A stretch of 20,693 nt of DNA, taken from positions 1 to 20,693 of IMG/VR virus record IMGVR_UViG_3300048597_000639. One strand, written 5' to 3'. Numbering within the stretch: the stretch's first letter is position 1; every line of letters starts with the position of its first letter. This document shows, piece after piece, positions 4,490 through 20,693 of the stretch. Below the pieces are notes generated by a model. It saw only the letters and a list, made by a program, of their open reading frames with translations. It was not told the DNA's origin and searched no databases. Source of the stretch: a virus. Both the position numbers and the translations under genes were made by a program.

Positions 4490-4495
4490 GTCAAG

Positions 4496-4909: not shown

Positions 4910-4914
4910 CCTCG

Positions 4915-6067: not shown

Positions 6068-6075
6068 GGGAGGTG

Positions 6076-6083
6076 CCTCCTTT
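6076..6083 (-). promoter_or_regulatory. Strong ribosome binding site of the major tail gene
   Basis: AAAGGAGG on the minus strand, eight bases before the GTG start at 6067. It is one of only two near-consensus Shine-Dalgarno sites in the late operon. The other is AAGGAG before the major capsid gene. Confidence 0.8.
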
Positions 6084-6095
6084 CAGGCTGGGTGG

Positions 6096-6503
6096 TCATG
6101 GGATGCGGGTCCACTGGACGACGACGTCGAGCATCCGGCGGTAGCGCCCGACGTCCGGGCGCCAGTCATCGATCGAGGTGTCCACCAGCGCCGAGGCGAT
6201 CGGGACGGGCCCCCAGGTGCCGGTGAAGCCGTCCACCACCTGCTTGACCTCCGTCGCCAGCAGCTCCGCCGCCCGGGCCGATTCCGCCCAGCAGGCGATC
6301 TGGATGCGGGAGCGCTGGAACGACGCGCCCGCGCCATCGCCCGAGTGGGCATCGCCGTGGCTGTGGAGCGGGCCCTCGCCGCCGACGAGCTGGTAGACGA
6401 CGGCGGGCAGCGTCGCACCCTGGGGCAGCGTGAGCGGGTACACCCGATCGCCGACCGAGAGCACCGACGAGAGGTGGGCGTACAGGCCGTCGCCGAGGAT
6501 CAT
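6096..6503 (-). CDS. Tail terminator / tail completion protein (DUF3168-like)
   Basis: 135-aa protein of the DUF3168/lambda gpU-like group, expected to cap the tail at the head-proximal end. It starts MILGDGLYAHLSSVLSVGDRVYPLTLPQGATLPAVVYQLV, a characteristic opening for this family (short helix, then R-V-Y-P-x-x-x-P-x-x-A-x-x-P-x-V-V-Y). Later it has a central strand RIQIACWAES followed by a helix with V-x-x-V-V-D-G-F, and a C-terminal strand LDVVVQW. The start overlaps the preceding gene's stop by ATGA. Its place directly before the major tail gene fits. Confidence 0.85.
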   Translation of the reverse strand: MILGDGLYAHLSSVLSVGDRVYPLTLPQGATLPAVVYQLVGGEGPLHSHGDAHSGDGAGASFQRSRIQIACWAESARAAELLATEVKQVVDGFTGTWGPVPIASALVDTSIDDWRPDVGRYRRMLDVVVQWTRIP

Positions 6504-6973
6504 CTGGCGACCCCCTCCGTCGCCTTGGCCAGCACATCCCCCGCGGCCTGGACGGCACGCTCCGCCGAGGCGTCGAACGCGGGTCGGGCGGAGGGCTCGG
6601 CCGGTCGGTCGGCGTCCCCGAACTCGAGGCGCGCGGCGTAGGCGATGGGCTGGTCGGCGTCGTCGAGTCCGGCCACCTTCCGGGGTCCGACCGAGCCCGA
6701 GGCGCCGGCCTTGGTCTTCGCGGCCCTGGTCGCGCCGTCCAGCGAGTGCTGGTAGTTGGCATCGAGGACCGGGACGCGCGACCGCCATTCCGTGGCGATC
6801 ACGCCGCCGGCGGCCTGCAGCGCATCCTTGGACGCCTTCACCCGGACCGCGTCGTGGAGCCGGGTGAGGGCCGCCGCCAGCTCCGGACCGCCTTCCAGCG
6901 TCGCCTGGAACTTCGTGGACATGACCCGACCACGGCGGCCGATGACGTTGCTGATCCGGACGGCGCGGGCCAT
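6500..6973 (-). CDS. HK97 gp10-like head-tail joining protein
   Basis: 157-aa protein of the HK97 gp10 type, a neck component. After a short basic N-terminus it reads GGPELAAALTRLHDAVRVKASKDALQAAGGVIATEWRSRVP, the usual helix of this family, followed by a Gly-rich turn (GASGSVGPRK), then IAYAARLEFGDADRPAEPSARPAFDAS, the conserved E-F-G ... P-A-R-P-(A/F) signature. The ATG at 6973 sits in a TGATG overlap with the upstream gene; a second ATG at 6922 would remove 17 basic residues and cannot be excluded. Confidence 0.82.
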   Translation of the reverse strand: MARAVRISNVIGRRGRVMSTKFQATLEGGPELAAALTRLHDAVRVKASKDALQAAGGVIATEWRSRVPVLDANYQHSLDGATRAAKTKAGASGSVGPRKVAGLDDADQPIAYAARLEFGDADRPAEPSARPAFDASAERAVQAAGDVLAKATEGVAR

Positions 6974-7290
6974 CAGGTGGCCACCTTCCGGGCGACCAGC
7001 ACCGTCTCGCGCCGGCCCAGGGTCGGTGCGACCCGGACGATGTCGTAGACGGCGATGCCGTCCAGCACCACCATCTCGGGCCGGATCTGCGGGTGGTGAC
7101 CGGCCAAGACGATGTCGAAGCGGTCCTCGATGGTGACGAGGTCCGGGTCCCGCGTCTCGTCGACCGCGGGCACGATGGTCGCCGCCACCGAGGCGAGCCC
7201 GGGCACCGTCACGTGGGTGTGGGTAACACCACCGGCGGGATCGCGGACCTCCACGGACGACTGGATGGCGACGCGGGTGCGGTAGCGCAT
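6973..7290 (-). CDS. Head closure / head-tail stopper protein
   Basis: 105-aa beta-rich protein in the head-closure slot between the gp6-like adaptor and the gp10-like protein. It runs RTRVAIQSSVEVRDPAGGVT, then VAATIVPAVDETRDPDLVTIEDRFDIVLAGHHPQIRPEMVVLDGIAVYDIVRVAPTLGRRETVLVARKV. The second part has the strand order and V-x-V-L-D-G ... Y-D-I-V-R-V pattern seen in SPP1 gp16/HK97 gp7-like stoppers. A 1-base TGATG overlap couples it to the adaptor gene. The assignment rests on position and fold-like pattern rather than on a unique motif. Confidence 0.72.
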   Translation of the reverse strand: MRYRTRVAIQSSVEVRDPAGGVTHTHVTVPGLASVAATIVPAVDETRDPDLVTIEDRFDIVLAGHHPQIRPEMVVLDGIAVYDIVRVAPTLGRRETVLVARKVAT

Positions 7291-7850
7291 CAGCGGGCAC
7301 CCGCCGCGGCAAACGGCACCGAGCGTGGCACGGGCGGGTCCCCGGGCCGGATCGCCCGCAGCAGCTCGTTCCGCTGGCGGAGGTATCGGCCGTAGGACTC
7401 GGTCCAGCCGCCGGCGCCCTGGCTGGCCATCCCCGGCTGGACGTTGAGCTCGAGCTGCACGAGCTGGACCAGCACCGTCCGGCGGATCGCGGAGTCGTCG
7501 GTCGGCGTGTGGGTCACGACCGTCCGCTCGCCCCACAGCGCCATCGCGAGGCGCCGCAGGTAGCGGGCCTCGATCCGGTACTCGGTGGCATCGAGGTCGG
7601 ACTCGATGCCACCATGGATGTCGGTGACGCTCGTGATCGCGACCGGGGCCTGGCGCAGCAGGAGCAGCGTCCGGCCCGGCGCGTTGACGGCCTCGGTGAC
7701 GGGCACGATCGCGCCGTCCTCGTCGAACGAGAGCGGCCCCGCCCAACCGGCGATGGCCAGCTCGCAGCCGGCGAGGAGGCGCTCGAGCGCGGTGTCCGGG
7801 AGCGCGCTCTCCACGTGCTCCCGGAGCTCCGCCACCGTCAGGAGGCCCAC
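7290..7850 (-). CDS. Head-tail connector (gp6-like adaptor)
   Basis: 186-aa protein directly downstream of the capsid gene, the place of the gp6/gp15-like adaptor ring that docks under the portal. It starts MGLLTVAELREHVESALPDTALERLLAGCELAIAGWAGPL, the typical helix-turn-helix opening of gp6-like adaptors, followed by strands RTLLLLRQAPVAITSVTDIHGG and the helix EARYLRRLA. The C-terminal extension ending in a Pro-rich, Arg-rich tail is a little long for the family. It starts at a GTG only 2 bases after the capsid stop. Confidence 0.8.
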   Translation of the reverse strand: MGLLTVAELREHVESALPDTALERLLAGCELAIAGWAGPLSFDEDGAIVPVTEAVNAPGRTLLLLRQAPVAITSVTDIHGGIESDLDATEYRIEARYLRRLAMALWGERTVVTHTPTDDSAIRRTVLVQLVQLELNVQPGMASQGAGGWTESYGRYLRQRNELLRAIRPGDPPVPRSVPFAAAGAR

Positions 7851-7852
7851 GG

Positions 7853-8797
7853 TCAGGACGCCGGCACCAGGACCGCGAAGGGGAAGCGGGTCCCCTCGGT
7901 CGGGTTCTGGAGGCTGATGGGGTTGGCGACCTGGAACGCCACCCGCATCACCGCGCGCATGGCGACCGCGTCCTGCTGCGCGAGGTTGAGGATGACCTTG
8001 CCGTCGGCGTCGCTGATGACCGCCTCGGTCAGGATCTTGTAGCTGATGTCCTGGCGCACCGCGAGGATAGCGGCGCTGGTGTCGCCGGCGATGAGGTCAG
8101 CCTGGCTGGCATCCCAGGCGCCGTTGGTGGGATAGAGGATCGGCTCGCCGTAGAGCGTGCCGGGCGTGCCGGCCGTCAGCGAGGGCTGGAAGATGGGCTG
8201 GCCGTTGTCATCCCGGAGGCCCCGGAACGCCGCCTTCAGGCCCCGCCGGGCCCAGAAGCCGTTGACGTCGAAGCCGTCCTCCTCGACCTTGCCCATGACG
8301 AGGTTGACGTCCGCCGCGATGTCGCCGGTGGATTCGCCGACCTCGACCACGTTGCCGGCGGCGATCGCGGCCTCCACGATCGAGTCGGGCCAGCCCGACG
8401 GGGAGTCGGTGCCGAACAGGGCCGCGGCGTCGATCTTGGCCCCGAACGCCTCGACGAGGCGAGGTCGCACCTCGCCCCAGATGTCGAAGTCGGCGTCATC
8501 GAGGACGGCCTGGGGGATGGGCACGATGACCGCGAGCTCCCGGGCGTCGAGGTACTTGTTCGCCCAGTTCTGCTCGGTCGTCTGCTTGAGCCCGGTGTCG
8601 CCGTCCACCCAGTAGGCGACAGGCAGGACCGACAGCACGGGCAGCCGCTGCTGGGCGCGGCTCATCGTGGCGCGGCGGAAGGACGACAGGGCCACCGAGC
8701 TCGCGGGCAGGCCCTGGATGATGGTACGGCTCACGTCCTCGGGGATGAGGGCGCCGACGTCGCTGCGGTCGATGACGCTGTTGTAGACGGGCGGCAT
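7853..8797 (-). CDS. Major capsid protein (HK97 fold)
   Basis: 314-aa major capsid protein. The pattern RATMSRAQQRLPVLSVLPVAYWVDGDTGLKQTTEQNWANKYLDARELAVIVPIPQAVLDDADFDIWGEVRPRLVEAFG (about residues 42-120) is the N-arm to E-loop and spine-helix region of phage HK97-fold capsids. Further on come DAALFGTDSPSGWP and the P-domain strands up to AVMRVAFQVANPISLQNP. There is no long delta domain, and no protease gene was seen nearby; the separate scaffold gene upstream takes that role. AAGGAG six bases before the ATG at 8797 gives a strong start, in a 13-base gap after the scaffold gene. Confidence 0.94.
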   Translation of the reverse strand: MPPVYNSVIDRSDVGALIPEDVSRTIIQGLPASSVALSSFRRATMSRAQQRLPVLSVLPVAYWVDGDTGLKQTTEQNWANKYLDARELAVIVPIPQAVLDDADFDIWGEVRPRLVEAFGAKIDAAALFGTDSPSGWPDSIVEAAIAAGNVVEVGESTGDIAADVNLVMGKVEEDGFDVNGFWARRGLKAAFRGLRDDNGQPIFQPSLTAGTPGTLYGEPILYPTNGAWDASQADLIAGDTSAAILAVRQDISYKILTEAVISDADGKVILNLAQQDAVAMRAVMRVAFQVANPISLQNPTEGTRFPFAVLVPAS

Positions 8798-8803
8798 GGG
8801 GAT

Positions 8804-8809
8804 CTCCTT
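8804..8809 (-). promoter_or_regulatory. Strong ribosome binding site of the capsid gene
   Basis: AAGGAG on the minus strand, six bases before the capsid ATG at 8797. It matches the need for several hundred copies of this subunit per virion, and contrasts with the stop-start overlaps used for low-copy neck proteins. Confidence 0.75.
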
Positions 8810-8810
8810 G

Positions 8811-9386
8811 TCAGGTGCGCCCCGCGGCGCGGCGGATGAGGCTGTTCATGTCGGTGCCCGAGGCCGAGGCGCCCCGCTGGCCGCCACCGAAGTCGGACGC
8901 GACGCCGGTGCGGCCGAGGTAGGGCGAGCGGGCGAGGACGTCGGCGAGCAGGCGCTCGACGTTCTTGGGCGTCCCGTCGTCCTTGGTCTCGACCGCGGAG
9001 GGATCGATGAGCCGGATGGCGAGGTCGGGGTCCCGGAAGCCGAGCTTGGCCGCGGCCTCCAGGGCCGCGTACCGGATCGCCCGGTCCTTCTCCCGCGCGA
9101 GGACCTGTTCCCGCTCGGCCTCGAGCTCCGTAACACGGCGCTGGAGCCGCTCGGCCTCCGAGAGCTGCGCGTCGGTGACCCTGCGCAGGTCGGTGCGGTG
9201 CTTCGCCGCCTCCCGTCGGGCCTCGGCCAGCTCGCGCTGGAGGACGGCGACATCGACGGTGGTCGAGATGGGGTCGGTCGTCCCGGCGGCCGCCTGGGCC
9301 TGCGTCGTGGACTCCGGATGGATCGTGCCCGCCTGGGGCGGCGCGCCGGGCTCCTGGCCGCTGGTCGCGCTGGTGCTGTCGCTCAT
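8811..9386 (-). CDS. Capsid scaffolding protein
   Basis: 191-aa scaffold, encoded between portal and capsid genes. It has a disordered, Gln/Thr/Ala-rich N-terminus (residues 1-45), then a long charged coiled coil (about 48-110: AVLQRELAEARREAAKHRTDLRRVTDAQLSEAERLQRRVTELEAE...) and a conserved segment AALEAAAKLGFRDPDLAIRLID (about 108-130), followed by a Gly-rich C-terminus. This order, coiled coil then K-L-G-F-x-D-P-x-L-A, is the common actinophage scaffold pattern. The ATG overlaps the portal stop by ATGA. Confidence 0.88.
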   Translation of the reverse strand: MSDSTSATSGQEPGAPPQAGTIHPESTTQAQAAAGTTDPISTTVDVAVLQRELAEARREAAKHRTDLRRVTDAQLSEAERLQRRVTELEAEREQVLAREKDRAIRYAALEAAAKLGFRDPDLAIRLIDPSAVETKDDGTPKNVERLLADVLARSPYLGRTGVASDFGGGQRGASASGTDMNSLIRRAAGRT

Positions 9387-10915
9387 GGTACCTCCGATGC
9401 GATCGCGGCCGGCACCGCCGCCCGGGTGAAGCCGGCCCCGATGGGGGTGGACGTGTCAGGGACACGGACTGGCTCGGGCTGTGCCGCGCGCCGCTCGCGC
9501 ATCTGGCGCACCTGCTCGGGCGAGTAGCCCAGCTGCTCCTGCGCGGTCTCGAGATCGATGACGCCCGCCTGGAACTGCTTGAGGACCGCGTCCGTGCGGA
9601 CCGCCTCGTTCTGGGTCTCGGGGTCCCGCCAGATCGTCTCGGCGGAGCGCACCCGTCCCCGGGCGTCGCCCATGGCGAGGAGGCAGAGGCGCATGACCTC
9701 CTCCCAGCCCTCGCCCAGGTGGAGCGCGATGCGCCCGACCTTGCGCACGAGGCCGGCCTCGCTGGACTTGAGCGATTCACCGGACGGCGGGATGGCCTGC
9801 GGCTGGCCGAGGAAGAAGTGGTACGGGATGCGGGAGATCGAGCTGATGTGGCCGACCTCGGTTTCGATCATCAGCTTGTAGGGCAGCAGGTCCGTGGCGG
9901 CGAACTCGCCCACCTGCGGGAACGCCTGGTTGGGGTCCTCGGGGTCCGGACGGGGGAACGTCCAGAGCCGGTCGACCGCGGGCTTGAAGGGCTCGATGGG
10001 CCGGCCGGTCTCCGGGTCGACCGGGATGTCGATGCCGATCGCCCAGCGCTGGCGGAACGCCGCGAACTCCGATGCCACGAGGGCATCGGCACGGTACTTG
10101 TTGATGGCGTCCTGGTTGCTCATCACGCCCGCGATCTCGCTCCGCCCATCGAGCCGCACCGGGACGCCGGTCACCGACCAGGAGCGACCCGACAGGCGCG
10201 GCCGGTTCGGCAGCGGCACCACCGGCACGACGCCCAGCGGGTTCGGCAGCGGCCAGGGCTCGTCGGGGACCTCGAGCCGGGCCCAGCGGACCGAGGACGG
10301 CTCGAGCGGCAGGTCGCCGGCCGGGACCTCTGTCGTGGCGGTCGTGACTCTGGCGACCGAGCGGTACTTGAACACCGCGTCGGGCAGGTGGAGGTAGGCG
10401 ACGAGATGGCCCTCGTCGTCGACCCAGCGCTTGAGCGCGGCGACCCGCTGGGTCCGGTCCTTGGCAGCGGTCTCGACCACGCAGTCGAGCGGGTCCTCGA
10501 CCGTGACCACCGGTGTCCCGTCCGGCGAGGGCTCGACGATCGCGTAGGCGACGCCCTTCATGAGCGCCTCGGTATGGGCCAGCTGGGACCCGGCGTCGAG
10601 GTCGTTCTCCTGCCAGATCCGACGCCAGATGTCGGCGTCGCCCTCCGCATCGGCGAACCGGAACCCCTGGACCTCGAGGCGCTCCGCCGGCGCATCGACG
10701 ACGAGGCTCATGAAGTTGGAGCTGAACTCCCGGAAGCGGCTGCCGAAGGCGTCCCGGAACTTCTGGCTCGCGAACGCGAGGGGCTGGTGCCCGTCGTAGT
10801 AGGCCTCGAAGGTCTCGAGGTCGGTCCGCCGGGCATCGAGGCGCGCGAGGAGGCGGGCCAGCCACCACTCGGGGCTGCCGGCGGGCGCGGTGCGGAGGTC
10901 GATCGTGTCGGGCAT
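9383..10915 (-). CDS. Portal protein (SPP1 gp6 type)
   Basis: 510-aa portal subunit, forming the ring through which DNA enters the capsid. The opening PEWWLARLLARLDARRTDLETFEAYYDGHQPLAFASQKFRDAFGSRF... and SSNFMSLVVDAPAERLEVQGFRF (residues about 15-90) are the hallmark start of SPP1-gp6-like portals. The central part carries VEDPLDCVVETAAKDRTQRVAALKRWVDDEGH, and the stem/crown helix has FLGQPQAIPPSGESLKSSEAGLVRKVGR. The length is normal for the family. Its ATG overlaps the terminase stop as TGATG. Confidence 0.93.
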   Translation of the reverse strand: MPDTIDLRTAPAGSPEWWLARLLARLDARRTDLETFEAYYDGHQPLAFASQKFRDAFGSRFREFSSNFMSLVVDAPAERLEVQGFRFADAEGDADIWRRIWQENDLDAGSQLAHTEALMKGVAYAIVEPSPDGTPVVTVEDPLDCVVETAAKDRTQRVAALKRWVDDEGHLVAYLHLPDAVFKYRSVARVTTATTEVPAGDLPLEPSSVRWARLEVPDEPWPLPNPLGVVPVVPLPNRPRLSGRSWSVTGVPVRLDGRSEIAGVMSNQDAINKYRADALVASEFAAFRQRWAIGIDIPVDPETGRPIEPFKPAVDRLWTFPRPDPEDPNQAFPQVGEFAATDLLPYKLMIETEVGHISSISRIPYHFFLGQPQAIPPSGESLKSSEAGLVRKVGRIALHLGEGWEEVMRLCLLAMGDARGRVRSAETIWRDPETQNEAVRTDAVLKQFQAGVIDLETAQEQLGYSPEQVRQMRERRAAQPEPVRVPDTSTPIGAGFTRAAVPAAIASEVP

Positions 10916-12462
10916 CAGAAGCCCACCGGCGCTCGCGGCACCCGCACGAACGGCTTCGGCGCCTCCTGCATCGCCATGGCCACGGCCATGACCATCGCGA
11001 CGCAGGCATCGTTCTTGCGGGGCGTCACCTTCTTGGGCTTGGTGACCTTCATGCCGCGCTCCGTGAGGATCGCGGTCGTGTTGGCGACGTGCTCCGCGAG
11101 CACCGGATCGCCGTCGTGCGCGAGCCGCCCCGTGGTGATCAGCTCGAACGCCTGCGTGGAGGCCGGACCCATCGTCGTCGCGTTCTGCGGGAAGTCGACC
11201 ATCGCGAGTCCCTCCTGCTCCAGGGTCTCCGCCGATTCCGAGAACGCCCAGCGGTCGTAGGCGAAGGCGGGACCCTGGAGGGCACGACCGGTCTTCTCGT
11301 CGCGCGCCTGGGGCGCGGGGAAGCGACCCCGCACGTAGCGCAGGTAGGCGCGCATCGATTCGGTGTTGACGCGGCCGGTGGCCGGGTGGGGCGGGAACAC
11401 GCGCGAGCGGATCACGACCCGGTCCCCCTGCCGCTGGGCGACGACGATCGCGGACAGGTCGCTCGTCTGGCCCTTGTCGATGCCGACGCCCACCGGGAGC
11501 GCGGGGTCGAGGCCGTGGAGCGGGTCGTCGGGATCGGGGTCACCTGTTCGGCACGCAGACCAGGCGCCGTCCGGGAGCCACGCTTCCTCCGTGCCCACGA
11601 ACTGGTTGAGGTGATACCGGCGCCAGTCGAGCAGCGCCCCACGGGCCCGGAGGCGGGCGTGCTCTTGTGCCAGGTACTTCCCGTCCTGCAGCCAGGAGGC
11701 CGGGTTGCAGGCGCGCCAGACCTCGGGATCCTCGATGTCGGCGTCCCTCGGTGCGCCATACCACCAGATGAGGACGCCGTTGGCGCGGTCCCGGTAGATG
11801 AGCAGACTGCCGCGGTCCTCGAGCTCGCCGGGGCCGTCGAACATGCTGGCGTGGAGCTCCACGAGGATGCCCGGGGCATCCACGCCCGCCGTGCTGATCC
11901 AGAGCGTGAAGGGCTGCTCGCGGGCGCCCGTCCCCGTAGTGAGCGCGGTGTAGAGGTCCGCGGTCCGATGGGCGTGGAGCTCGTCGATGATGTTCGCGTA
12001 GGGGTTGAGGCCGTGCTGGAGCGCGGCATCGGCACTGAGGCTGCGCATGACCCCGCCGTTGCGGGGGCACTCGATGAGCGTCGTCCGCACGGACACGTAT
12101 CGGGACAGGCGGGGCGACTGCTGGGCCATGCGGCGGGACTGACCGAGCACGATGCCGGCCTGATTGCGGGCGGCCGCGGCGACATAGACCTCGGGCTCGG
12201 CCTCCCCGTCGGCGACGAGGAAGTAGAGGCCGGCGGCACTGGCCTGGACGGACTTGCCGTTCTTGCGGGGCAGGCCGAGGCCGACCTCCTGGTACACCCG
12301 GAGGCCGGTGGTCGGATCGACCTCCAGGGCCTCCCACCAGAACTCCCGCTGCCACGGTTCCAGGCGCAGGGGCTCGCGAGCCCAGCGTCCCTTGGTGTGG
12401 CGGACGTAGTGCTCGCAGAAGGCGGCGAAGCGGGGGCCGCCGGTGAGGGCATCGGGGACCAC
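10915..12462 (-). CDS. Terminase large subunit
   Basis: 515-aa packaging motor of the HK97 type. The ATPase Walker A is GLPRKNGKS (residues 63-71) and the Walker B is NIIDE (157-161), followed by the coupling segment TLWISTAGVDAPG. The nuclease domain shows VGIDKGQTSDLSAIV, with the metal-binding Asp at 329, and the C-terminal KNDACVAMVMA, with Asp 485. Full length for the family; the GTG start lies 3 bases after the small-subunit stop. It is expected to pump DNA into the prohead and cut concatemers. Confidence 0.95.
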   Translation of the reverse strand: MVPDALTGGPRFAAFCEHYVRHTKGRWAREPLRLEPWQREFWWEALEVDPTTGLRVYQEVGLGLPRKNGKSVQASAAGLYFLVADGEAEPEVYVAAAARNQAGIVLGQSRRMAQQSPRLSRYVSVRTTLIECPRNGGVMRSLSADAALQHGLNPYANIIDELHAHRTADLYTALTTGTGAREQPFTLWISTAGVDAPGILVELHASMFDGPGELEDRGSLLIYRDRANGVLIWWYGAPRDADIEDPEVWRACNPASWLQDGKYLAQEHARLRARGALLDWRRYHLNQFVGTEEAWLPDGAWSACRTGDPDPDDPLHGLDPALPVGVGIDKGQTSDLSAIVVAQRQGDRVVIRSRVFPPHPATGRVNTESMRAYLRYVRGRFPAPQARDEKTGRALQGPAFAYDRWAFSESAETLEQEGLAMVDFPQNATTMGPASTQAFELITTGRLAHDGDPVLAEHVANTTAILTERGMKVTKPKKVTPRKNDACVAMVMAVAMAMQEAPKPFVRVPRAPVGF

Positions 12463-12465
12463 GGC

Positions 12466-12957
12466 TCAGACATCGCCGCCCACCACGCGCAGACGGGGCG
12501 GTGGCCCGAGGACATCCTCGATGTCCGTCGGCAGCGCTGACGCCTCCACCCGGAGACCCGCCCGGGCGGACGGCGACAGGCCCAGCTCCCGGGCGAACAG
12601 GCGGACGGCATCGGCGTTGTCCCGCACGACCTGGTGGAGCGGGTTCTTGACGAACTCCCCATCCCGCCGGAGGAGTGGGCTGGACTTCGCGTACAGCTCC
12701 GCGGCCTGGGCATAGCGGGCGACCGCCTCGCAGTAGCAGCGCAGGACGTCCGCATCGGCACCGACGATCACATCCGAGCCGCGCATCTCCCGGACCACGC
12801 GGCGCCACACCTTCTGGGCCTCGTCATCCATGCCCCGCGGCATCTGGGGTGCACCGGCACGGGGCAGCGGCTCCATCCGATTGACCCGGGACGGACGCGT
12901 CTCGCCGTTCCGGAGCTTCACGCCGGTCGGGGTGGGTGCGGGTCCACGGCGGCCCAT
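12466..12957 (-). CDS. Terminase small subunit (P27 family)
   Basis: 163-aa P27-family small terminase that recognises phage DNA for packaging. The N-terminus MGRRGPAPTPTGVKLRNGETRPSRVN is the family's typical basic leader, followed by helical segments DEAQKVWRRVVREMRGSDVIVGADADVLRCYCEAVARY and LLRRDGEFVKNPLHQVVRDNADAVRLFARELGLSPSARAGLRV, the classic G-x-x-V-K-N-P-x-x-x-x-x-R signature. It lies between a methyltransferase gene (TGATG overlap) and the large terminase. Confidence 0.93.
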   Translation of the reverse strand: MGRRGPAPTPTGVKLRNGETRPSRVNRMEPLPRAGAPQMPRGMDDEAQKVWRRVVREMRGSDVIVGADADVLRCYCEAVARYAQAAELYAKSSPLLRRDGEFVKNPLHQVVRDNADAVRLFARELGLSPSARAGLRVEASALPTDIEDVLGPPPRLRVVGGDV

Positions 12958-14399
12958 CAGGCAGCCTCCGCCGTCGGCGCCGGGACGCGCTCCGCCTTGA
13001 GCCCCGTGAACTCCTCGAAGCGGCGGACGATGACGTCGCAGTAGAGCGGGTCGATCTCCATGAGTCGTGCCCGGCGTCCGGTCTGCTCCGCGGCGATCAG
13101 TGCGGACCCCGAGCCGCCGAACAGGTCGAGCACCACCTCACCGGGCAGGGAGCTGTACTCGATCGCCAGACGGGTCAGCTCCGTCGGCTTCTCGGTCAGG
13201 TGGACCATCGCCCGTGGGTTGACCTTCTTGACCGACCAGACGTCGGTGGCGTTCGGGGGCCCGAAGAAGCGGTGCCCGGCCCCCTCCTTCCAGCCGTAGA
13301 AGCACCACTCGTGGTTGCCCATGAAATCCTTGCGGGTGAGGACCGCGTGCTCCTTCACCCAGATCACCGCCTGGCTGAAGTAGAGGCCGGCGGCACGCAG
13401 GGCGGGCGGGTAGTTCGCGATGTTCGCGTAGCCACCCCAGATGTAGAAGGCACCGCCGGGACGGAGCACGCGGGCGCCGTTGCGGAACCAGGCATCCAGG
13501 CGCGCCGCGAAGTCCTCGTCGGTGATGAAGTCACCCACGAGCGGCCGGTCCTTGGCGCGCATCTTCCGGTGGGTCGGCTGGGCCTTCTCCGGATGCCGTG
13601 CCAGGTCCATCGACTGGTGGTGGGATGCGGGCGGCTTCAGTCGCGCGGCGTCGAACTCGTGGAGGCCGCGGGCGTTGCGGCGCTTCGCCTGGCTCGCCTC
13701 GAGCGCGGTCTGGTAGGAGGCGTCCCACTGGTCCGACATCCCCGCCGCGATCGCGTTGTTGGAGCGGGGCTCGACCTTCACGTTGTAGGGCGGGTCGGTG
13801 GCCAGGAGATCCACGGTCGCACCGTCGAGCAGCCGATCGAGGTCCGCGGGATTCCCGGAGTCGCCGCACAGCAGCCGGTGCTCGCCGAGGATCCACAGGT
13901 CGCCGGGCCTGGTGACGGCCTCGTCCGGAGGTGCGGGGACGTCGTCGGGATCGGTCAGCCCGGCCCGGACCTGCTGCGGTGCCAGCCTGGCCAGCATCGC
14001 GGCGAGCGCCTCGTCGTCCGCTGATGCCTCCGCGAGCAGCGCCGCGAGCTTCTCGTCGTCGGTGCCAGCCATCGCCGCGAGGGGGTCGAGGGCGACGAGG
14101 ACGAGCGCCTCCTCCTCGGCGGTGAGCTCGACGTAGCTCACGGGGATGGTCGCCTCGCCCCGGGCCAGGGCGAGGTCGACCCGCAGGTGGCCGTCGACGA
14201 GATGGCCCGTGGTCCGGTTGACCATCACCGGGGCGACGACCCCGACCTGGTCGATCAGGCCGGCGAGTGCATCCCGCTGCGCCTTCGGATGCGTCCTCCA
14301 GTTCGCGGGGTTCGCGAGGAGCTGGTCGGGCGCCTCGTCCCCGATGCCCACGATCCGCGAGCGCCAGGGGCTGACAGCGGACGTGGTGGGCCTCGGCAC
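12957..14399 (-). CDS. ParB-like nuclease domain / DNA methyltransferase fusion
   Basis: 480-aa protein with a ParB/Srx-like N-terminal domain (about residues 20-95: NPANWRTHPKAQRDALAGLIDQVG, then GHLVDGHLRVDLALARGEATIPV) and a DNA-methyltransferase domain (about 165-465). The methylase has DPPY at 202-205, the C-terminal HLTEKP at 400-405 and DLFGGSGS at 425-432. DPPY before FGGSGS makes it a beta-class amino-methylase, giving N6-adenine or N4-cytosine; the target site is unknown. The fusion is common beside terminase genes in actinophages and may protect phage DNA from host restriction. The start is uncertain: I chose the GTG at 14399; another GTG at 14468 would add 23 residues without a better ribosome site. 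Confidence 0.9.
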   Translation of the reverse strand: MPRPTTSAVSPWRSRIVGIGDEAPDQLLANPANWRTHPKAQRDALAGLIDQVGVVAPVMVNRTTGHLVDGHLRVDLALARGEATIPVSYVELTAEEEALVLVALDPLAAMAGTDDEKLAALLAEASADDEALAAMLARLAPQQVRAGLTDPDDVPAPPDEAVTRPGDLWILGEHRLLCGDSGNPADLDRLLDGATVDLLATDPPYNVKVEPRSNNAIAAGMSDQWDASYQTALEASQAKRRNARGLHEFDAARLKPPASHHQSMDLARHPEKAQPTHRKMRAKDRPLVGDFITDEDFAARLDAWFRNGARVLRPGGAFYIWGGYANIANYPPALRAAGLYFSQAVIWVKEHAVLTRKDFMGNHEWCFYGWKEGAGHRFFGPPNATDVWSVKKVNPRAMVHLTEKPTELTRLAIEYSSLPGEVVLDLFGGSGSALIAAEQTGRRARLMEIDPLYCDVIVRRFEEFTGLKAERVPAPTAEAA

Positions 14400-14493
14400 G
14401 TCCTCGTTGTCACACCCGCCCGCGGGACGGTCAAGCGCGCCGCCGCACGGATGTTCGAGAAGCCGCACGGAAAGCGGATGGCGGGTCCGGGCT

Positions 14494-14515
14494 CGGTGTC
14501 ATCACGGTGTCATCG
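14494..14515 (+). repeat. Tandem 11-base repeat in the divergent promoter region
   Basis: CGGTGTCATCA at 14494-14504 is followed immediately by CGGTGTCATCG at 14505-14515; 10 of 11 bases agree. A related CATCACGG follows at 14531-14538. They lie in the 164-base gap between the late operon and the divergent small-gene operon, where an activator or repressor would bind. Confidence 0.5.
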
Positions 14516-14563
14516 CGCCCACACGCCTTGCATCACGGCGCGTCCCGAGCGACTCATGGACGC

Positions 14564-14800
14564 ATGGACACCACCACCGCCACCGCGAAGGGCCAGCCGA
14601 GCGAGGTCCAGCGCCTGATCGCGCAGCACACGCGCGAGATCGACCCGCGCCACATCGAGGCCTGGATGCGGGTCGAGCACCCGACGCTCGACGGCCTCTC
14701 GCGCGAGGAGCTGCTCGGCGCCATGTACCGCGCCATCGCCGACCACCTCGAGGCGGGTGACGCGATGAGCGAATCCCTCGCCGCCACGTTCGGCCTCTGA
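14564..14800 (+). CDS. Small hypothetical protein
   Basis: 78-aa protein that I do not recognise, first of four small genes on the plus strand, divergent from the packaging operon. It is predicted to be helical: SEVQRLIAQHTREIDPRHIEAWMRVEHPTLDGLSREELLGAMYRAIADHLEAGDAMSESLAATFGL. No metal-binding cluster, membrane segment or catalytic motif is visible. I chose the ATG at 14564; an in-frame GTG at 14507 is possible. Neither has a good ribosome site. It ends 15 bases before the next gene, so it is likely co-transcribed with it. Such small acidic helical proteins are common in phage and plasmid accessory operons. Confidence 0.62.
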   Translation: MDTTTATAKGQPSEVQRLIAQHTREIDPRHIEAWMRVEHPTLDGLSREELLGAMYRAIADHLEAGDAMSESLAATFGL

Positions 14801-14815
14801 GACGGAGCGACCCCG

Positions 14816-15112
14816 ATGACGACCCGACCCCGCGACACCCGCACCGCGCTCGACACCTACATGGAGCACCACGCCGCCGCGCTCGCCCTCCTGGTGCGGA
14901 TCACCGAGCACCTGGCCAACCACGACGACGCCCCCGCCGAGGGCCTCCACTGGGGCCACGTGGGAGACATCGCCGAGACCCGCAGGACCCTCCAGGAACT
15001 GAGCGACCGCCTCTTCTCCGAGGGCGAGTTCGCCGAGGTCGCCTGCCTCCGCTGCCCCGCGACGTTCCGGACCAGCCCCGAGCTCGACGCCCATTACCGC
15101 GCCACCCACTGA
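14816..15112 (+). CDS. Small protein with a C2H2-type zinc finger
   Basis: 98-aa protein of unknown role. Residues 1-75 form a helical, His- and Glu-rich region. The last 22 residues make a textbook C2H2 finger: C77-x2-C80, then F84 and L90, then H93-x4-H98, at the very C-terminus. Spacing and the two core hydrophobics match classical fingers, which are unusual in bacterial genomes but do occur in phage-borne small proteins. DNA binding is plausible but unproven. GGAG lies about eight bases upstream of the ATG at 14816. The gene sits in the short-gap operon at 14564-15889. Confidence 0.75.
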   Translation: MTTRPRDTRTALDTYMEHHAAALALLVRITEHLANHDDAPAEGLHWGHVGDIAETRRTLQELSDRLFSEGEFAEVACLRCPATFRTSPELDAHYRATH

Positions 15113-15127
15113 CGAAGGAGATCCGCG

Positions 15128-15436
15128 TTGACCAGCCAGACCATCCCGACCTGCACCCTGTGCGGCCGCGAGCTTCCCGCCGATGCCATCGGTTACCTCG
15201 GCGACGGACGCCTCGCCTGCGTGGTCGTCCAGGCCTGTGAGGCACGCCGGAAGGTGGATGCCGAGGACCCCGAGACGCCCGCCCAGCGGCGCGCGGCCCT
15301 GCTGAGCGCCATGGAGGGCGGGTACGCCGCTCCCGAGGACTTCGGTCCGATCGAGGCGTGCGACGGGTTCCGCGGTGAGAGCGCCTGGGGTCCCTGCGCG
15401 GAGTGCGGGAAACGCCTCGAGGACCACGACGCCTGA
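15128..15436 (+). CDS. Small Cys-rich (zinc-ribbon-like) protein
   Basis: 102-aa protein with two separate CxxC knuckles: C9-x2-C12 near the N-terminus (TCTLCGREL) and C90-x2-C93 near the C-terminus (GPCAECGKRLEDH). Additional Cys at 31, 37 and 78 and His 100 could complete two zinc sites. The middle is a charged helix. It starts with TTG at 15128, set by a strong GAAGGAG seven bases upstream. It resembles zinc-ribbon-type accessory proteins of phages; the function is unknown. It is third in the four-gene small-protein operon. Confidence 0.75.
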   Translation: MTSQTIPTCTLCGRELPADAIGYLGDGRLACVVVQACEARRKVDAEDPETPAQRRAALLSAMEGGYAAPEDFGPIEACDGFRGESAWGPCAECGKRLEDHDA

Positions 15437-15514
15437 CGCCGAAACCGGGCGATCGCCCGGTCCGCCGGAGACCCCGCCCGGCGCTGACGAGGCAGGGGAC
15501 CAAGGAGCACCACG

Positions 15515-15889
15515 ATGGACAGCAAGAAGGACGCCACCACCCAGACCGCGAGCGGCATGCGCCGCTGCATCGGCAGCACCACGTTCGGGATCGAGGCGCA
15601 CGAGGCGCCGGTCGACGACTTCCCGGTCCAGGCGAGCGCGAAGGATGGGCTCGGCCGGATGTGCAAGCCGCACTGGCGGCAGTACACCAACGCGCTGCGG
15701 AAGGCGGCCGTGTCGCGCAAGGCGGCGGAGGCCGCGACCGAGGCGGTCACGGAGCCCGAGCCGATCGCGGAGACGGAGTCGGTGACGGAGACCACCACCG
15801 AGCCGGACGTCGAGGCCGAGGCGCCTGCGCCCCGGAAGGGCCGCCGGTCGAAGGTCCAGGCGGAGCCCGAGGAGGTCGCCGCCGCCTGA
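15515..15889 (+). CDS. Small protein with acidic/Pro-rich tail
   Basis: 124-aa protein of unknown role. The N-terminal half has a possible metal-binding pair: C18 and C50-K-P-H53-W, within GRMCKPHWRQYTNALRKAA, which recurs in phage accessory proteins. The C-terminal half (about residues 70-124) is low-complexity Ala/Glu/Pro/Thr, likely disordered, with a basic patch RKGRRSK near residue 107-113. AAGGAG lies seven bases before the ATG at 15515. It is the last gene of the operon and is followed by a strong hairpin. Confidence 0.72.
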   Translation: MDSKKDATTQTASGMRRCIGSTTFGIEAHEAPVDDFPVQASAKDGLGRMCKPHWRQYTNALRKAAVSRKAAEAATEAVTEPEPIAETESVTETTTEPDVEAEAPAPRKGRRSKVQAEPEEVAAA

Positions 15890-15911
15890 CCCACCCGATC
15901 CCCGCACGACG

Positions 15912-15940
15912 GGCCCCGGGCGCGAGTCCGGGGCCTTCCT
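15912..15940 (+). terminator. Rho-independent-type terminator after the small-gene operon
   Basis: A perfect 8-bp stem GGCCCCGG / CCGGGGCC (15912-15919 with 15928-15935), an 8-base loop and a following TTCCT. The T-tract is mixed with C, so it is weaker than a classical terminator, but it sits 22 bases after the last small gene. Confidence 0.6.
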
Positions 15941-16043
15941 CTGTCCGGTGGTATCCGTGCGCGGCCCGCGGGACACCGCGGCATGTGGGCGCCCTGTGGC
16001 GCCCCCGGTGGCGGTGGTCAGCTCGCCGCGGCTCCCGGGCCGT

Positions 16044-16085
16044 GGTCCGTCGGCACTTGACCCGGTCCGTGCCGACGCGGACCAT
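16044..16085 (+). promoter_or_regulatory. Promoter-like site inside an inverted repeat, before the second lipoprotein
   Basis: TTGACC at 16057-16062 and GACCAT at 16080-16085 are separated by 17 bases. They are framed by an inverted repeat: GGTCCG-TCGGCAC (16044-16056) and its complement with a 2-base insertion (16069-16083). GGTCCGT also occurs as a direct repeat at 16044 and 16064. The -35 lies in the loop, so a bound repressor could control the lipoprotein. No transcript evidence. Confidence 0.35.
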
Positions 16086-16123
16086 TCGAACCCCATGCCA
16101 ACTGTCCGAACCGCAGGTCCCTG

Positions 16124-16843
16124 GTGAGGTCGCTCGCCTCCATCGCGCTCGTGCTCCTGGCGGCCCTCGTCATCGGCTGCGACCGAGCGGCCGTGCCGAC
16201 CAAGGGCACGATGCCCCCCGGAGATGTCGATTGGCGCAACGCGGCGAGCGTCGCGCCCGACTTCATCGCGGTGTGGGACCGCGACGGGGTCCGGATCGCG
16301 GGCTACGTCCCACGCTCGTACCTGTTCCCGGCACCCACGGTCGTCCCCATCGGCGCGGAGGATCCCCCCATGCCGGTGTACGCCGCGGATCTCAGGACGC
16401 TGGTCGGCCACATGGTGGCGGGCAAGGGGTTCGTCCCGGTCGGGGTCGACCCCGCTTCGATCGCGGACATCCCGGTCGAGGCGGGTCCGGCCGGTCCGGT
16501 CGATGCGCCCTCCGGAGGACCCCTGCCGGGAACCCTCGCGCTCTACGTGCGGACCGAATCCTCCAGGACGGCCTGGTTCGGGCAGCGTCGCGGCGCCGGC
16601 TTCGTCACGGCGACGGGGTTCGACGCGGATGGGGCGGGCTGTTTCGAGCTCGAGGTCGGGGATGAGATCGGGCTCTACGACCGGAGCCCCGACGACCCTG
16701 CCGCGGGGCGCATGCGCATCATCGAGACCGTCGACGGCGGCGAGCCAGCGGGCATGGCCACGTGGGTCGTGATCACTCGCGGAGGGGTCGTGACCCAGGG
16801 GGCCGGCAAGCCCGAATGGTGGCCGTGGGAACCGCCGTGCTGA
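16124..16843 (+). CDS. Putative lipoprotein
   Basis: 239-aa secreted lipoprotein. MRSLASIALVLLAALVIGCD is a signal peptide with lipobox VIGC and lipidated Cys 19. The mature part is largely beta-structured, with no recognised enzyme motif: WRNAASVAPDFIAVWDRDGVRIAGYVPRSYLF, then a Pro/Gly-rich loop, then GFVTATGFDADGAGCFELEVGDEIGLYDRSPDD. It starts at a GTG at 16124 with a weak AGG upstream. It is monocistronic: the hairpin terminator lies upstream and a 327-base gap lies downstream. It could be a host gene beside the phage segment or a second lysogenic-conversion gene; I cannot tell. Confidence 0.7.
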   Translation: MRSLASIALVLLAALVIGCDRAAVPTKGTMPPGDVDWRNAASVAPDFIAVWDRDGVRIAGYVPRSYLFPAPTVVPIGAEDPPMPVYAADLRTLVGHMVAGKGFVPVGVDPASIADIPVEAGPAGPVDAPSGGPLPGTLALYVRTESSRTAWFGQRRGAGFVTATGFDADGAGCFELEVGDEIGLYDRSPDDPAAGRMRIIETVDGGEPAGMATWVVITRGGVVTQGAGKPEWWPWEPPC

Positions 16844-17170
16844 TCGCGGCTCCGTAGCCGGCCCATCCGGCCGACCGGGAAAAATGGCGAAACCCGGCCG
16901 CGCGTACACGCTACCCGCGCGTCATCCCGGCTGCCCGGCCAGGTGAAGTACCTACCCCAGGCTCTGCCGGACGCCAGGTGGGGAAGGGTCCGATCGCTTG
17001 TTTGCGGCGTGTAACATGCGCGCAGCCGTATGCACGTCGCCCTGGGACATGCGTCCGGAGCTCGTCGCCTGCGGTGCAAGCACCTGACTGGGCTCGCCAG
17101 ACTCACGAACCCGGGTTCCGATTGACGGATCTCATGGCGTTGCTTCGAGCCCTTCAACAGGGAGTCGCAC
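16844..17170. other. Intergenic region with hairpins, no gene seen
   Basis: 327 bases between the lipoprotein and the membrane protein. Just after the lipoprotein stop are two overlapping short hairpins that cannot form together (CGGCT/AGCCG at 16847-16860 and GCCGG/CCGGC at 16857-16871), so a weak terminator is possible, though without a T-tract. A direct repeat CGCGCGT lies shortly after. TTGACG at 17122-17127 might be a -35 for the next gene, but no good -10 follows. No tRNA or other RNA gene could be supported. Confidence 0.4.
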
Positions 17171-17935
17171 ATGCGGGCCGTGTTCACGGTGAGTCTGCGG
17201 CCGTCCACCCAGGAGGGTCAGCCTCGGTATCCCTCCAACGATGACATCGTCACCCTCCTCCGAGGGTTCGGGTGGGAGACATCCGACCTGCATGACGTGG
17301 AGCCAAGCGAACGGCCCGCTCGATACGAGCGAGAGGCCACGCGGATCCTCAGCGAGATGCCGGAGCTCGCGGACGACGGCAAGGAACCCCATCTGCCGAC
17401 CGAGATGGAACGCCGCCACATCATCTTCTGGGGCTTCTTCGCCGCGGCGGACGAACAGACCGAGTTTCTCGTCACGCGTCCCAGCGAGAGCCAGGTCAAC
17501 TTCCGCCTGTTGCACAAACAGCTGCCGAACCTGCAGCGGTCGACGCTCCGCGCCGTGCGTCGGCTCCGCGCGACGAAGCTGGGCGGTCAGAAGCTCGACA
17601 TCGCCAACCGAAGCGTGCTCGTGTACGAGCGTGGTTTCAACCACGTCGTGATCCGTGGAAGAGTTCGTGGCAACTCCCTCCGCGAGGCCGTATCTGCCAA
17701 CGCGCGGGAGTTCTTTCTGTTCGTCGTGGCTGCGGTGGTCGTGGTGCCGCTGTGGCTCCTCGCCGGAGGCGCGGACCGTGCGAATGACCCCTTGTGGACG
17801 GGCACCTGGGACCGGCTCTCCACGGTCGCGGTTACGACGGCCGTTGTGAGCCTGCTGGGCTTCCTCACGACCGTCTGGGACATGGCACGACATCGCGTGG
17901 TCTTCTGGGACGTCGATCAAGGTAAGTACCGATAG
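17171..17935 (+). CDS. Unrecognised protein with two C-terminal membrane helices
   Basis: 254-aa protein that I do not recognise. Residues 1-175 are soluble and charged: a first domain with RYPSNDDIVTLLRGFGWETSDLHDVE, then a helix rich in Arg/Glu, then LPNLQRSTLRAVRRLRATKLGGQKLDIANRSVLVYERGFNHVVIRGRVRG. Two transmembrane helices follow, at about 180-199 (EFFLFVVAAVVVVPLWLLAGG) and 215-236, with a short cytoplasmic end. AGGGAG six bases before the ATG supports the start. It is encoded beside restriction and TIR genes, so a membrane effector or abortive-infection role is a fair guess, but no catalytic motif is visible. Confidence 0.6.
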   Translation: MRAVFTVSLRPSTQEGQPRYPSNDDIVTLLRGFGWETSDLHDVEPSERPARYEREATRILSEMPELADDGKEPHLPTEMERRHIIFWGFFAAADEQTEFLVTRPSESQVNFRLLHKQLPNLQRSTLRAVRRLRATKLGGQKLDIANRSVLVYERGFNHVVIRGRVRGNSLREAVSANAREFFLFVVAAVVVVPLWLLAGGADRANDPLWTGTWDRLSTVAVTTAVVSLLGFLTTVWDMARHRVVFWDVDQGKYR

Positions 17936-17968: not shown

Positions 17969-17982
17969 GTGCGCCGAGGCAC

Positions 17983-19161
17983 CTACAGAGGAGCCCGACC
18001 CTGCCACTGCAGCGGCCGCAGGGAGTACCTGTCGCGCTCGATCGCGCCCGGGTACCGGCGAACGTCCGCGTGCGTGCGGTTCGCCACGTCGATGCCGGTG
18101 ACCACGAGCAGCTCGTAGCACGACGCGTTGTCGACCGAAAACCGGCGCTCCCCCTCGCTCATCAGGAACACCGGCTCGAGTGATCGGGTGGACTTCACCT
18201 CGACGTAGCGCACGGGCACCGTCGCGGTGCCGACCAGGATGTCGAATCCCGGGTTGTTCTTCGGCATCGCCTTCACTGGCTGGCCAGGGTAGGCCTTGCG
18301 AACCACGCCCAGTGCCACCTCCATCCCGATTGCATCGACCGCATCCGCATCATCCGGCGTCGCATAACCACCCTTGGCGGGCCCAGCCGGTGGTGTGGGT
18401 GTGGCTGGTGTGGACGCTGGAACGATGGATGCCGACTCGACCCACTGTCGCCAGGCGGTCGGGGCGAGCGCGAGGGCATCCTCGAGACCGTATGCAGGGT
18501 CCCAACGCGCCGCGATCCAATCCCATGGAAGCCGGTCGTCGTCGAGCGCGATGAGGCGCATGTCGAAGCGGTAGTTCGAGAACATCCCGCCGTCGGCCCC
18601 CGGTTGGGTGACGGGCTCCGCTCCCACGATGAGCAGGATCCCCTCGAACCGGACGTGCCCGTTCTGGCGACCCTCGAGTTGCTGAGCCGTGAAGTAGAGC
18701 AACGGATGCGCGCGGACGCGCTCGGCCCGCGTCGCCGCGGTGTGCAGTGCCGTGGTGGCGAGCAGGACCTTGTTGCCCGGTGCGTCGGCGGCGTCCGCGA
18801 ACGCGAGGTCGGGACGCATGTCGCCGTAGTAGGTGAGCGTCGCGGCGGCCGGATCGAGCACGTCGTGCCAGGGTGTCGTCTCCGTGCCGGCCTTGTACGG
18901 CGTCGTGCGGAGCAGGATGGCGGGCTTGCGCTCCGCGCGGTCGGGTCCCACCACGCTCAGCATCGAGTTGATGCCCCGCTCGAGCCGCACGATTGGCCGG
19001 TCGGGGACATCGGGACGCTGCACGACCCAGTAGAAGTTCTGATGCGGGCAGGCATCCGGCTCGAGGACCTCGGTCGCCGCGACGGTGGGGTATGTCGCGA
19101 TCGTGTAGGTCGGATAGCGCAACGTCTGTCCGACCGAGATCGTCCTTCCTGTCGGCTGCAT
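17983..19161 (-). CDS. Putative modification-dependent (type IV) restriction endonuclease, AspBHI-like
   Basis: 392-aa protein. The N-terminal region (about 1-245) has the features of the SRA-like, methylated-base-binding domain of AspBHI-type enzymes: PWHDVLDPAAATLTYYGDMRPDLAF (residues 97-121) and HPLLYFTAQQLEGRQNGHVRFEGILLIVG (152-180). A Pro/Thr linker (about 247-263) leads to a nuclease domain of PD-(D/E)XK/DUF3883 type, with D307 in NNPGFDI and the E321-V-K323 core. The predicted role is to cut DNA bearing modified cytosine. I start it at the ATG at 19161, which has GGAGGGG nine bases upstream; a GTG-less upstream ATG at 19224 lacks a good site. It follows the HNH gene in the same direction. 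Confidence 0.75.
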   Translation of the reverse strand: MQPTGRTISVGQTLRYPTYTIATYPTVAATEVLEPDACPHQNFYWVVQRPDVPDRPIVRLERGINSMLSVVGPDRAERKPAILLRTTPYKAGTETTPWHDVLDPAAATLTYYGDMRPDLAFADAADAPGNKVLLATTALHTAATRAERVRAHPLLYFTAQQLEGRQNGHVRFEGILLIVGAEPVTQPGADGGMFSNYRFDMRLIALDDDRLPWDWIAARWDPAYGLEDALALAPTAWRQWVESASIVPASTPATPTPPAGPAKGGYATPDDADAVDAIGMEVALGVVRKAYPGQPVKAMPKNNPGFDILVGTATVPVRYVEVKSTRSLEPVFLMSEGERRFSVDNASCYELLVVTGIDVANRTHADVRRYPGAIERDRYSLRPLQWQGRAPL

Positions 19162-19257
19162 GTCCGATATCCCCTCCACCGATGACTCGCGAGGGATCGA
19201 CTCTACAAGGCGCTGGCCTTGCATGACACCGAGAGGATGGTCCGCCCATCCAGCGGG

Positions 19258-19605
19258 TCAGCGTGGTCGGCCGATCCGCGTGACCCGCCCGAATTCCCGG
19301 TCGAACCGCGCTGACTTGAGCCGATGATGCGCCGCGCAGAGCGACTGCAGGTTCTCAGGGTCGTCGCTTCCTCCGTAGACCTTGGGTCTGATGTGGTCCA
19401 CCTCGGTCGCAGGAAGGCCGCAGGGCGATCGGCCTACGGTCGCTCTCCATTGGCACAAGGGGTGACGGAGCAGTTGGTACGCCCGGTGTGACTGCCATGC
19501 GGAGCCGTAGCCGCGCTCAGCGGTGGTGCCACCTCCGCATCGCAGACAGCGACCGGCTCGAGAAGTAACGCAGAGACAGCCAGGGCAGGGACGGCGAATC
19601 GACAT
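19258..19605 (-). CDS. HNH endonuclease
   Basis: 115-aa HNH nuclease. The fold signature reads ATEVDHIRPKVYGGSDDPENLQSLCAAHHRLK, with the catalytic D70-H71, N85 and H93/H94. Two zinc-binding CxxC pairs sit at the N-terminus (C7/C10 and C20/C23), followed by RGYGSAWQ, the typical opening of phage and mobile-element HNH proteins. The ATG at 19605 is preferred over an upstream ATG at 19734, which would add an unlikely 43 residues; no strong ribosome site is visible. It lies 97 bases upstream of the type IV enzyme, on the same strand. It could be a phage packaging HNH or a partner nuclease of the defence genes. Confidence 0.85.
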   Translation of the reverse strand: MSIRRPCPGCLCVTSRAGRCLRCGGGTTAERGYGSAWQSHRAYQLLRHPLCQWRATVGRSPCGLPATEVDHIRPKVYGGSDDPENLQSLCAAHHRLKSARFDREFGRVTRIGRPR

Positions 19606-19787
19606 CACGTCAACGGATGCCCACTCGGACGGGCCGATGGTTGTGCGAGACTGAGTTGACCACCCGATGCGTCCGCGCGGAGGCCCACAGCGCTGGGAAG
19701 ACGCGCAAGGGTCGCCGAACAAGAACGTGCGCAAAGGGAGACCACGCAGGTGGACCCGAGGCCGCGCTCGAGACTGCAGGGGATGCG
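19606..19787. other. Divergent promoter region of HNH/restriction and TIR genes
   Basis: 182 bases between the divergent HNH and TIR genes. It contains TTGACC-like hexamers in both directions, but no convincing -10 at the right spacing, so no promoter is called. The TIR ATG is preceded by AGGGG. Confidence 0.35.
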
Positions 19788-20693
19788 ATGACGAGTCCGG
19801 TCGGCAAGGTCTTCATCTCACATGCGAGCACCGACAAGCCCTTCGTGGACCGCCTGGTCCAGGACCTGACGTCTCGCGGCGTGCCCGTCTGGTACGACAA
19901 GCTCGATCTCAAGGTCGGCGACAGCATCCCGGGCGCCATCAACGAAGGACTTACCGCCGCCAAGTACTTCTTGCTCGTCCTTTCCAAGGCGTCGGTCGGG
20001 TCCCGATGGGTCCAGGAAGAGATGAACGCTGCCCTGATGCATCAAGTGGCCTCGGGCGGAACCTTCATCGTGCCGGTGATGCTCGAGGACTGCGACGTCC
20101 CACCACTCCTGAAGCACCGGCGTCATGCTGACTTCCGCACGGACTACGGTGCCGGACTGACAGACCTGCTTGCCGTCTGGGGAATGGATGCCCAGGCCGC
20201 TCAGGCCTTGAATTCCACCGCGCTGTACCCGTGGCCTGATCTCGATGCGTCCGATCAGGACTTCGTGTACCTGCACTCGACGCGCTTCGCGAAGTTCTTC
20301 CGGGTGGGATGCGACCTGTCCAGTCCCGCCGAAAAGCTGCTGGACGACATCATCAAGGCACTCGACCTCCCGTGGACGAACGACATGCCGCAGTTCGGAT
20401 TCCGTTGGTCCTTCAGCTATGGGTTGGCGTTTAAGGACGAGTCGATGGCGCTCTCGCAGAAGCTGCGTGACGCCGGAGTGAAGTCTGGCGATGTCGTGGA
20501 GCTCTCCGTCCAGGGGACCTATCAGGACCTATGGACGAACGAGCTCGAGAACATGTGGGACGGCTCCAAGATGTACAACATGTTGTTTGCGAAGCAGCGC
20601 GAGGCGGAGCTGCAGCAACAGATCCGGGACCGGGGCCCTCTCACTCGAGATCGCCTTAGAGCGATCGCGAACTCGGCCTTCGACCACATCTAG
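19788..20693 (+). CDS. TIR-domain protein with a C-terminal ubiquitin-like (beta-grasp) domain
   Basis: 301-aa protein. Residues 5-130 are a bacterial TIR domain: VFISHASTDKPFVDRLVQDL, then WYDKLDLKVGDSIPGAINEGL, then LLVLSKASVGSRWVQEEMNAAL. The TIR NADase catalytic Glu should be E78 in W74-V-Q-E-E78, the same spacing as W-x-x-x-E in SARM1. Residues 167-243 look like a beta-grasp ubiquitin-like domain: a strand FFRVGCDL, helix PAEKLLDDIIKALDL, strand RWSFSYGL, then the family-like end LSQKLRDAGVKSGDVVELSV. A charged helix follows to the end. I start at the ATG at 19788, preceded by AGGGG; the longer upstream frame is unlikely. The beta-grasp call is inferred from the pattern. Confidence 0.8.
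   Translation: MTSPVGKVFISHASTDKPFVDRLVQDLTSRGVPVWYDKLDLKVGDSIPGAINEGLTAAKYFLLVLSKASVGSRWVQEEMNAALMHQVASGGTFIVPVMLEDCDVPPLLKHRRHADFRTDYGAGLTDLLAVWGMDAQAAQALNSTALYPWPDLDASDQDFVYLHSTRFAKFFRVGCDLSSPAEKLLDDIIKALDLPWTNDMPQFGFRWSFSYGLAFKDESMALSQKLRDAGVKSGDVVELSVQGTYQDLWTNELENMWDGSKMYNMLFAKQREAELQQQIRDRGPLTRDRLRAIANSAFDHI

Follow-up and report, generated by a model that had tools for sequence, protein, structure and literature searches.

How bacterial TIR proteins sense infection has so far been solved for a few of them. SpbK, from the Bacillus subtilis element ICEBs1, is clustered by the clip domains of phage portals through its N-terminal, non-TIR domain (PMC12847820), and for the Thoeris proteins ThsB1/B2 the activator is the major capsid protein (PMC12578639). 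TIR proteins borne by phages have in turn been proposed to restrict superinfection (PMC9503650). Here we describe a TIR protein encoded at one end of an IMG/VR virus record. The record resembles a fragmentary provirus of a temperate siphovirus and was analysed over its whole length of 20,693 nucleotides (hereafter the window). In this protein the TIR domain is followed by a second domain with a probable ubiquitin-like fold.

Comparison with described TIR systems

Like SpbK, this is a single mobile-element protein that combines one TIR domain (an NADase in SpbK) with one non-TIR domain, but the order is inverted: SpbK binds its partner through an N-terminal domain and has its TIR at the C-terminus, while here the TIR comes first, followed by a C-terminal domain that is, unlike that of SpbK, probably ubiquitin-like. 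No match to the portal-binding N-terminal domain of SpbK was found in the protein, and the PADLOC spbK model gave E 0.007 over 26 residues of the TIR. With Thoeris ThsB it shares a TIR with the catalytic Glu and a putative role in infection sensing, although the match to the ThsB model is confined to the TIR domain, and neither ThsA nor an equivalent effector appeared among the neighbours tested, in a record that ends at the stop of the TIR gene. The second domain has a weak profile similarity to YukD/EsaB, the accessory proteins of WXG100 secretion, from the helix to the last strand and including the GV-x-x-G-D-V stretch; in contrast to these proteins, it scores far under the family cut-off and is fused to a TIR, and no type VII secretion genes were detected in the window. 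PDC-S66 and retron-TIR (type XII) rank among the nearest TIR profiles of PADLOC and NCBIfam; these are models with a C-terminal TIR, and their match ends at the TIR.

The phage and its host

Most of the siphovirus core genes lie on the minus strand. The major capsid protein (PF05065; 7853-8797), TerL and an N6/N4 DNA methylase were assigned by Pfam, and the portal (9383-10915), tail and tape measure genes were named from a reading of their translations. Four sister contigs (L002-L005) align to the record at 79-90% DNA identity, the similarity ending at about 16,925. TerL relatives of 60-93% identity were found in 30 viral contigs and also in three MAGs labelled Chloroflexi, and because of the latter a high-GC Chloroflexota bacterium is the most likely host. 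The nearest sister, L002 (TerL 93% identical), carries, past its HNH gene, an integrase and genes of primase type, again named from their translations, for which reason the phage group is considered temperate. The features discussed below are collected in Table 1.

Table 1. Positions of the main features within the window.
Feature	Positions	Strand	Evidence
Phage core (tail, tape measure, capsid, portal, TerL, methylase, others)	1..16900	.	Pfam and sister identity
254-aa protein, likely cargo	17171..17935	+	Two hydrophobic segments near C-terminus
Methyl-directed restriction endonuclease (AspBHI-type N-domain + NOV_C), likely cargo	17983..19224	-	Pfam, PADLOC
HNH endonuclease gene of the phage, start uncertain	19258..19734	-	Pfam HNH E 2.8e-8
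TIR + probable ubiquitin-like protein, 301 aa	19788..20693	+	ORF, SD CAGGGG upstream of ATG
TIR domain, residues 8-127	19809..20168	+	Pfam TIR_2 E 1.8e-30, TIR E 1.5e-6
E78 codon	20019-20021	+	W74 and E78 invariant vs NADase TIRs
Probable ubiquitin-like beta-grasp domain, residues 159-244	20262..20519	+	Single-sequence AF2, weak profiles, Foldseek ranking
C-terminal tail, probably helical, no GG, residues 245-301	20520..20690	+	Low-confidence model

The TIR gene as cargo

Past about 16,925 the record continues with the 17171-17935 gene, a restriction gene, the HNH gene and the TIR gene, in that order, and the GC content, 72% in the core, is here 61-68%, with GC3 going from above 0.91 to 0.70-0.84. 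The open reading frame of the TIR gene, its coordinates and its start (ATG at 19788, preceded by CAGGGG) were confirmed. Its GC is 61% and its GC3 0.82, compared to about 71-72% and 0.92-0.96 in the phage core genes. No TIR was found in 19 related phage records, most of which are fragments, and at the corresponding site beside the HNH gene L002 has its replication and integrase module instead. Given this low GC and GC3 and its absence from the related records, the TIR gene looks like strain-specific acquired cargo, a setting within a prophage record that the first-pass annotation had not recognised. A search for sigma-70-like promoters in 16800-20693 found none, a result of little weight for a Chloroflexota phage.

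The stop codons of the outermost genes form the first (1-3) and the last (20691-20693, the TAG of the TIR gene) codons of the record, and since both ends fall exactly on stop codons the record seems to have been trimmed at gene borders, as provirus software would do. The TIR gene could therefore be part of a host flank, that is, a chromosomal defence gene of the bacterium at the prophage border that was taken in by the provirus-calling software. Its GC unlike that of the core would agree with such an origin, as would the fact that TIR genes of the same subtype are common in Chloroflexota. However, the gene starts less than 200 bp from the HNH gene, which belongs to the phage (a 66% identical copy is present in L002), and in L002 the replication module and integrase run 5 kb past the HNH gene, so the true prophage end should be further out. 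We thus regard a host gene as unlikely and treat the TIR gene as phage cargo.

The restriction gene is inserted between the conserved phage core and the HNH gene. Its product was recognized by RE_AspBHI_N (E 1.4e-17) and NOV_C (E 3e-8) in Pfam and by mREase_II (E 2.2e-52) in PADLOC, and its N-terminal part has relatives in 8 of the 177 host-class genomes. We take its proximity to the TIR gene as in keeping with a defence cargo. The 17171-17935 product, with hydropathy maxima around residues 181 and 217, gave no match in family searches and has no relative in the 177 genomes; it is possibly a membrane effector. A rival reading is that the TIR protein makes the signal, or is the effector, within a larger, Thoeris-like system, its C-terminal module docking it either on a partner encoded beyond the end of the record or on the 17171-17935 product. 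Many TIR defences are indeed multi-gene, TIR genes of phages are reported to adjoin 2TM SLATT proteins (PMC9503650), and the two hydrophobic segments of the 17171-17935 product are placed near its C-terminus. Yet the neighbours gave no match to an effector family, ThsA and SLATT included, and two genes on the opposite strand stand between this candidate and the TIR gene. A multi-gene arrangement appears improbable to us, and we favor a protein that acts by itself.

The TIR domain

The assignment of the N-terminal half to the TIR fold, made in the first-pass annotation, is firmly established by TIR_2 (106.3 bits against a curated cut-off of 28). The closest solved relatives in the PDB include bacterial TIR NADases (E 2e-13 to 2e-12). 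In the alignment with solved TIRs, W74, E78, S11, D16, K17 and the GDS of the BB-loop are invariant, and both the WxxxE motif and the BB-loop residues are common to this protein and the solved NADase TIRs. E78, already proposed as the catalytic residue, is the expected catalytic Glu because it is invariant in the alignment with NADase TIRs. The domain is probably enzymatically active, as NADase or ADP-ribosyl cyclase, judging from the established biochemistry of TIR domains.

The retention of this Glu bears as well on a different role, namely a phage counter-defence protein (a decoy handling NAD or ADPR, or a modulator of host immunity) instead of a defence effector. Phage-encoded antagonists of ADPR-based immune signals are described in one report (PMC13232231), but a catalytic Glu has been retained here and the gene is cargo-like and located near a restriction gene, all of which make counter-defence very improbable in comparison with a defence effector.

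The TIR half has relatives in Chloroflexota with 39-43% identity, in which the second domain differs or is missing. This pattern fits a TIR subtype that exchanges its partner domain. Five of these Chloroflexota proteins (L161-L165) differ in their second domains, among which are TPR-like repeats and partners on the N-terminal side.

A probable ubiquitin-like domain in the C-terminal half

The C-terminal half had been proposed to have a ubiquitin/YukD-like fold starting at about residue 167. In a single-sequence AlphaFold2 model of residues 152-250 the predicted elements are strands at 159-164 and 169-174, a helix at 181-191, a strand at 204-212, a second helix at 220-228 and a last strand at 236-244. 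The domain thus begins about 8 residues ahead of the earlier limit and takes in the expected first hairpin, and its strand-strand-helix-strand-helix-strand order corresponds to that of a beta-grasp, albeit in a model of low confidence (mean pLDDT 51 for the domain and 39.5 for the whole protein). A predicted structure of another fold would have spoken against the proposal; the order found does not, within what a model of this confidence can indicate.

Three Pfam families were listed in a scan of the segment. Two of them, YukD (PF08817) and Rad60-SLD, are ubiquitin-fold families, both with E 0.19; the score of YukD was 13.0 bits, below the family cut-off of 27 bits. The third, DUF1967, covers 21 residues, a match too limited to assign the tail to DUF1967/Obg C-terminal, and this candidate was rejected. 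A YukD profile constructed from 31 Chloroflexota members scored 11.0 bits against the C-terminal half (single-comparison E 3.4e-5), above every one of the 26,288 controls (maximum 9.7 for 20,000 shuffles and 10.0 for 6,288 ORF tiles), and hhalign gave P 9.4e-5 and a probability of 59%. The YukD relationship thus exceeds the controls but stays under the Pfam threshold, and the match spans the helix to the last strand only. Models for the Obg C-terminal domain and for acyl-CoA synthetases likewise gave weak matches to the LxxxGVxxGD motif.

Searching the PDB with the low-confidence model, Foldseek gave no significant match (best E 1.6). The highest TMq values (about 0.31 or more, all with E>1) were for NEDD8, ubiquitin variants, diubiquitin and RA/RBD-type domains, together with the small subunit of toluene monooxygenase. 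All of these top-TM matches, the RA/RBD domains and the monooxygenase subunit included, we take to be beta-grasp folds. The search of viral folds in BFVD was uninformative. The proposed fold is therefore backed by the profile score, the predicted order and the fold ranking, each of them weak and none decisive; these three lines are only partly independent, and the YukD profile comparison was itself prompted by the earlier suggestion.

One alternative is that the C-terminal half is an unrelated small alpha/beta domain peculiar to this protein, whose likeness to YukD arose by chance from the hydrophobic pattern and the GVxxGD turn. The structural evidence is all of low confidence, and GVxxGD matches families outside the ubiquitin fold as well. 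Against a chance likeness stand the profile score above all controls and the agreement of both the predicted topology and the fold-search ranking with the YukD profile. An unrelated domain is consequently a possibility of the lesser kind, and a ubiquitin-like beta-grasp fold, as indicated by these profiles and the model, is in our opinion probable.

Beyond the last strand the low-confidence model of the full protein places helices at 245-260, 271-281 and 287-300. The protein ends in FDHI, with no GG tail, as had been pointed out. A conjugated ubiquitin-like protein was considered and discarded, there being no C-terminal GG after the last strand and about 57 further residues; since the domain is internal and without GG, conjugation of the protein itself is unlikely, in agreement with the first-pass annotation.

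Distribution of the C-terminal half

No credible homologue of the C-terminal half was detected by peptide scans of the viral_contigs and genome_contigs collections, by tblastn against plasmids and phages (E up to 10), or by phmmer against the PDB, nor was any homologue found in a search of 400 Chloroflexota genomes or, overall, in about 520 genomes of that phylum. With no homologue, the domain comes without a conservation pattern or a reliable model. Three candidates were discarded as chance matches: L049 is the antisense of a long gene and has an internal stop codon, and L050 and L055 are short motif matches in unrelated frames. Scans with the YukD profile and the tail sequence were also run on 97 frames that contain a TIR, drawn from phages, plasmids and Chloroflexota; none contained a relative of the tail, the best YukD score being 3.3 bits versus 11.0 for our protein. 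The same pair of TIR and C-terminal domain, which the earlier proposal suggested looking for in other genomes, was hence encountered in none of those examined. As peptide scans see close relatives only and the genomes are a sample, the tail has to be considered rare rather than unique. While the TIR type is well known, its pairing with a probable ubiquitin-like domain appears to be new within the material searched, and a ubiquitin-fold sensor on a TIR was found neither among the TIR relatives inspected nor in the literature searched.

Proposed mode of action

Our main reading, to which we give about even odds (roughly 0.5), is that this protein is an accessory immune effector complete in one polypeptide, carried as cargo by a temperate Chloroflexota siphovirus and aborting competing infections. 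The N-terminal TIR would be the NADase or ADP-ribosyl cyclase, and the C-terminal half, a probable ubiquitin-like beta-grasp plus helical tail, would be the protein-binding module. In the lysogen the protein would stay idle. On infection by a second phage, the C-terminal module may bind a cognate product of that phage, such as its capsid or portal protein, and the TIRs would cluster and complete a shared active site, after which NAD+ would be consumed and the competing infection aborted. We infer the activity and its product, the trigger and the abortive outcome. The trigger logic, in which a structural protein of the phage brings the TIRs together, is borrowed from SpbK, and a SpbK-like logic with a different second domain is the best-supported model. 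That a ubiquitin-like module may act as sensor or oligomerisation platform, as suggested earlier, fits known TIR immunity. The more specific idea that the beta-grasp is both the receptor for the phage product and the platform on which the TIRs of this prophage-borne immune protein cluster is put forward tentatively, and we consider it rather doubtful.

If true, recognition through a ubiquitin fold would be linked to TIR signalling in prokaryotes, and a single protein of 301 residues, whose ubiquitin-like module is small and separable, would make an easy test case. The locus also suggests that, in a phylum that has received little study, a prophage equips its host with a TIR gene located close to one for methyl-directed restriction.

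Other TIR proteins with a second domain were noticed by eye in viral contigs. Two of them (L108:3860-5293 and L110:1367-2683) have a TIR followed by a DnaB/KaiC-type ATPase-like domain with the motif LLAGRPLTGKT, and another three (L113:1397-2878, L117:2789-4426, and L118:2894-4444) are reverse transcriptase-TIR proteins that resemble retron-TIR (type XII).
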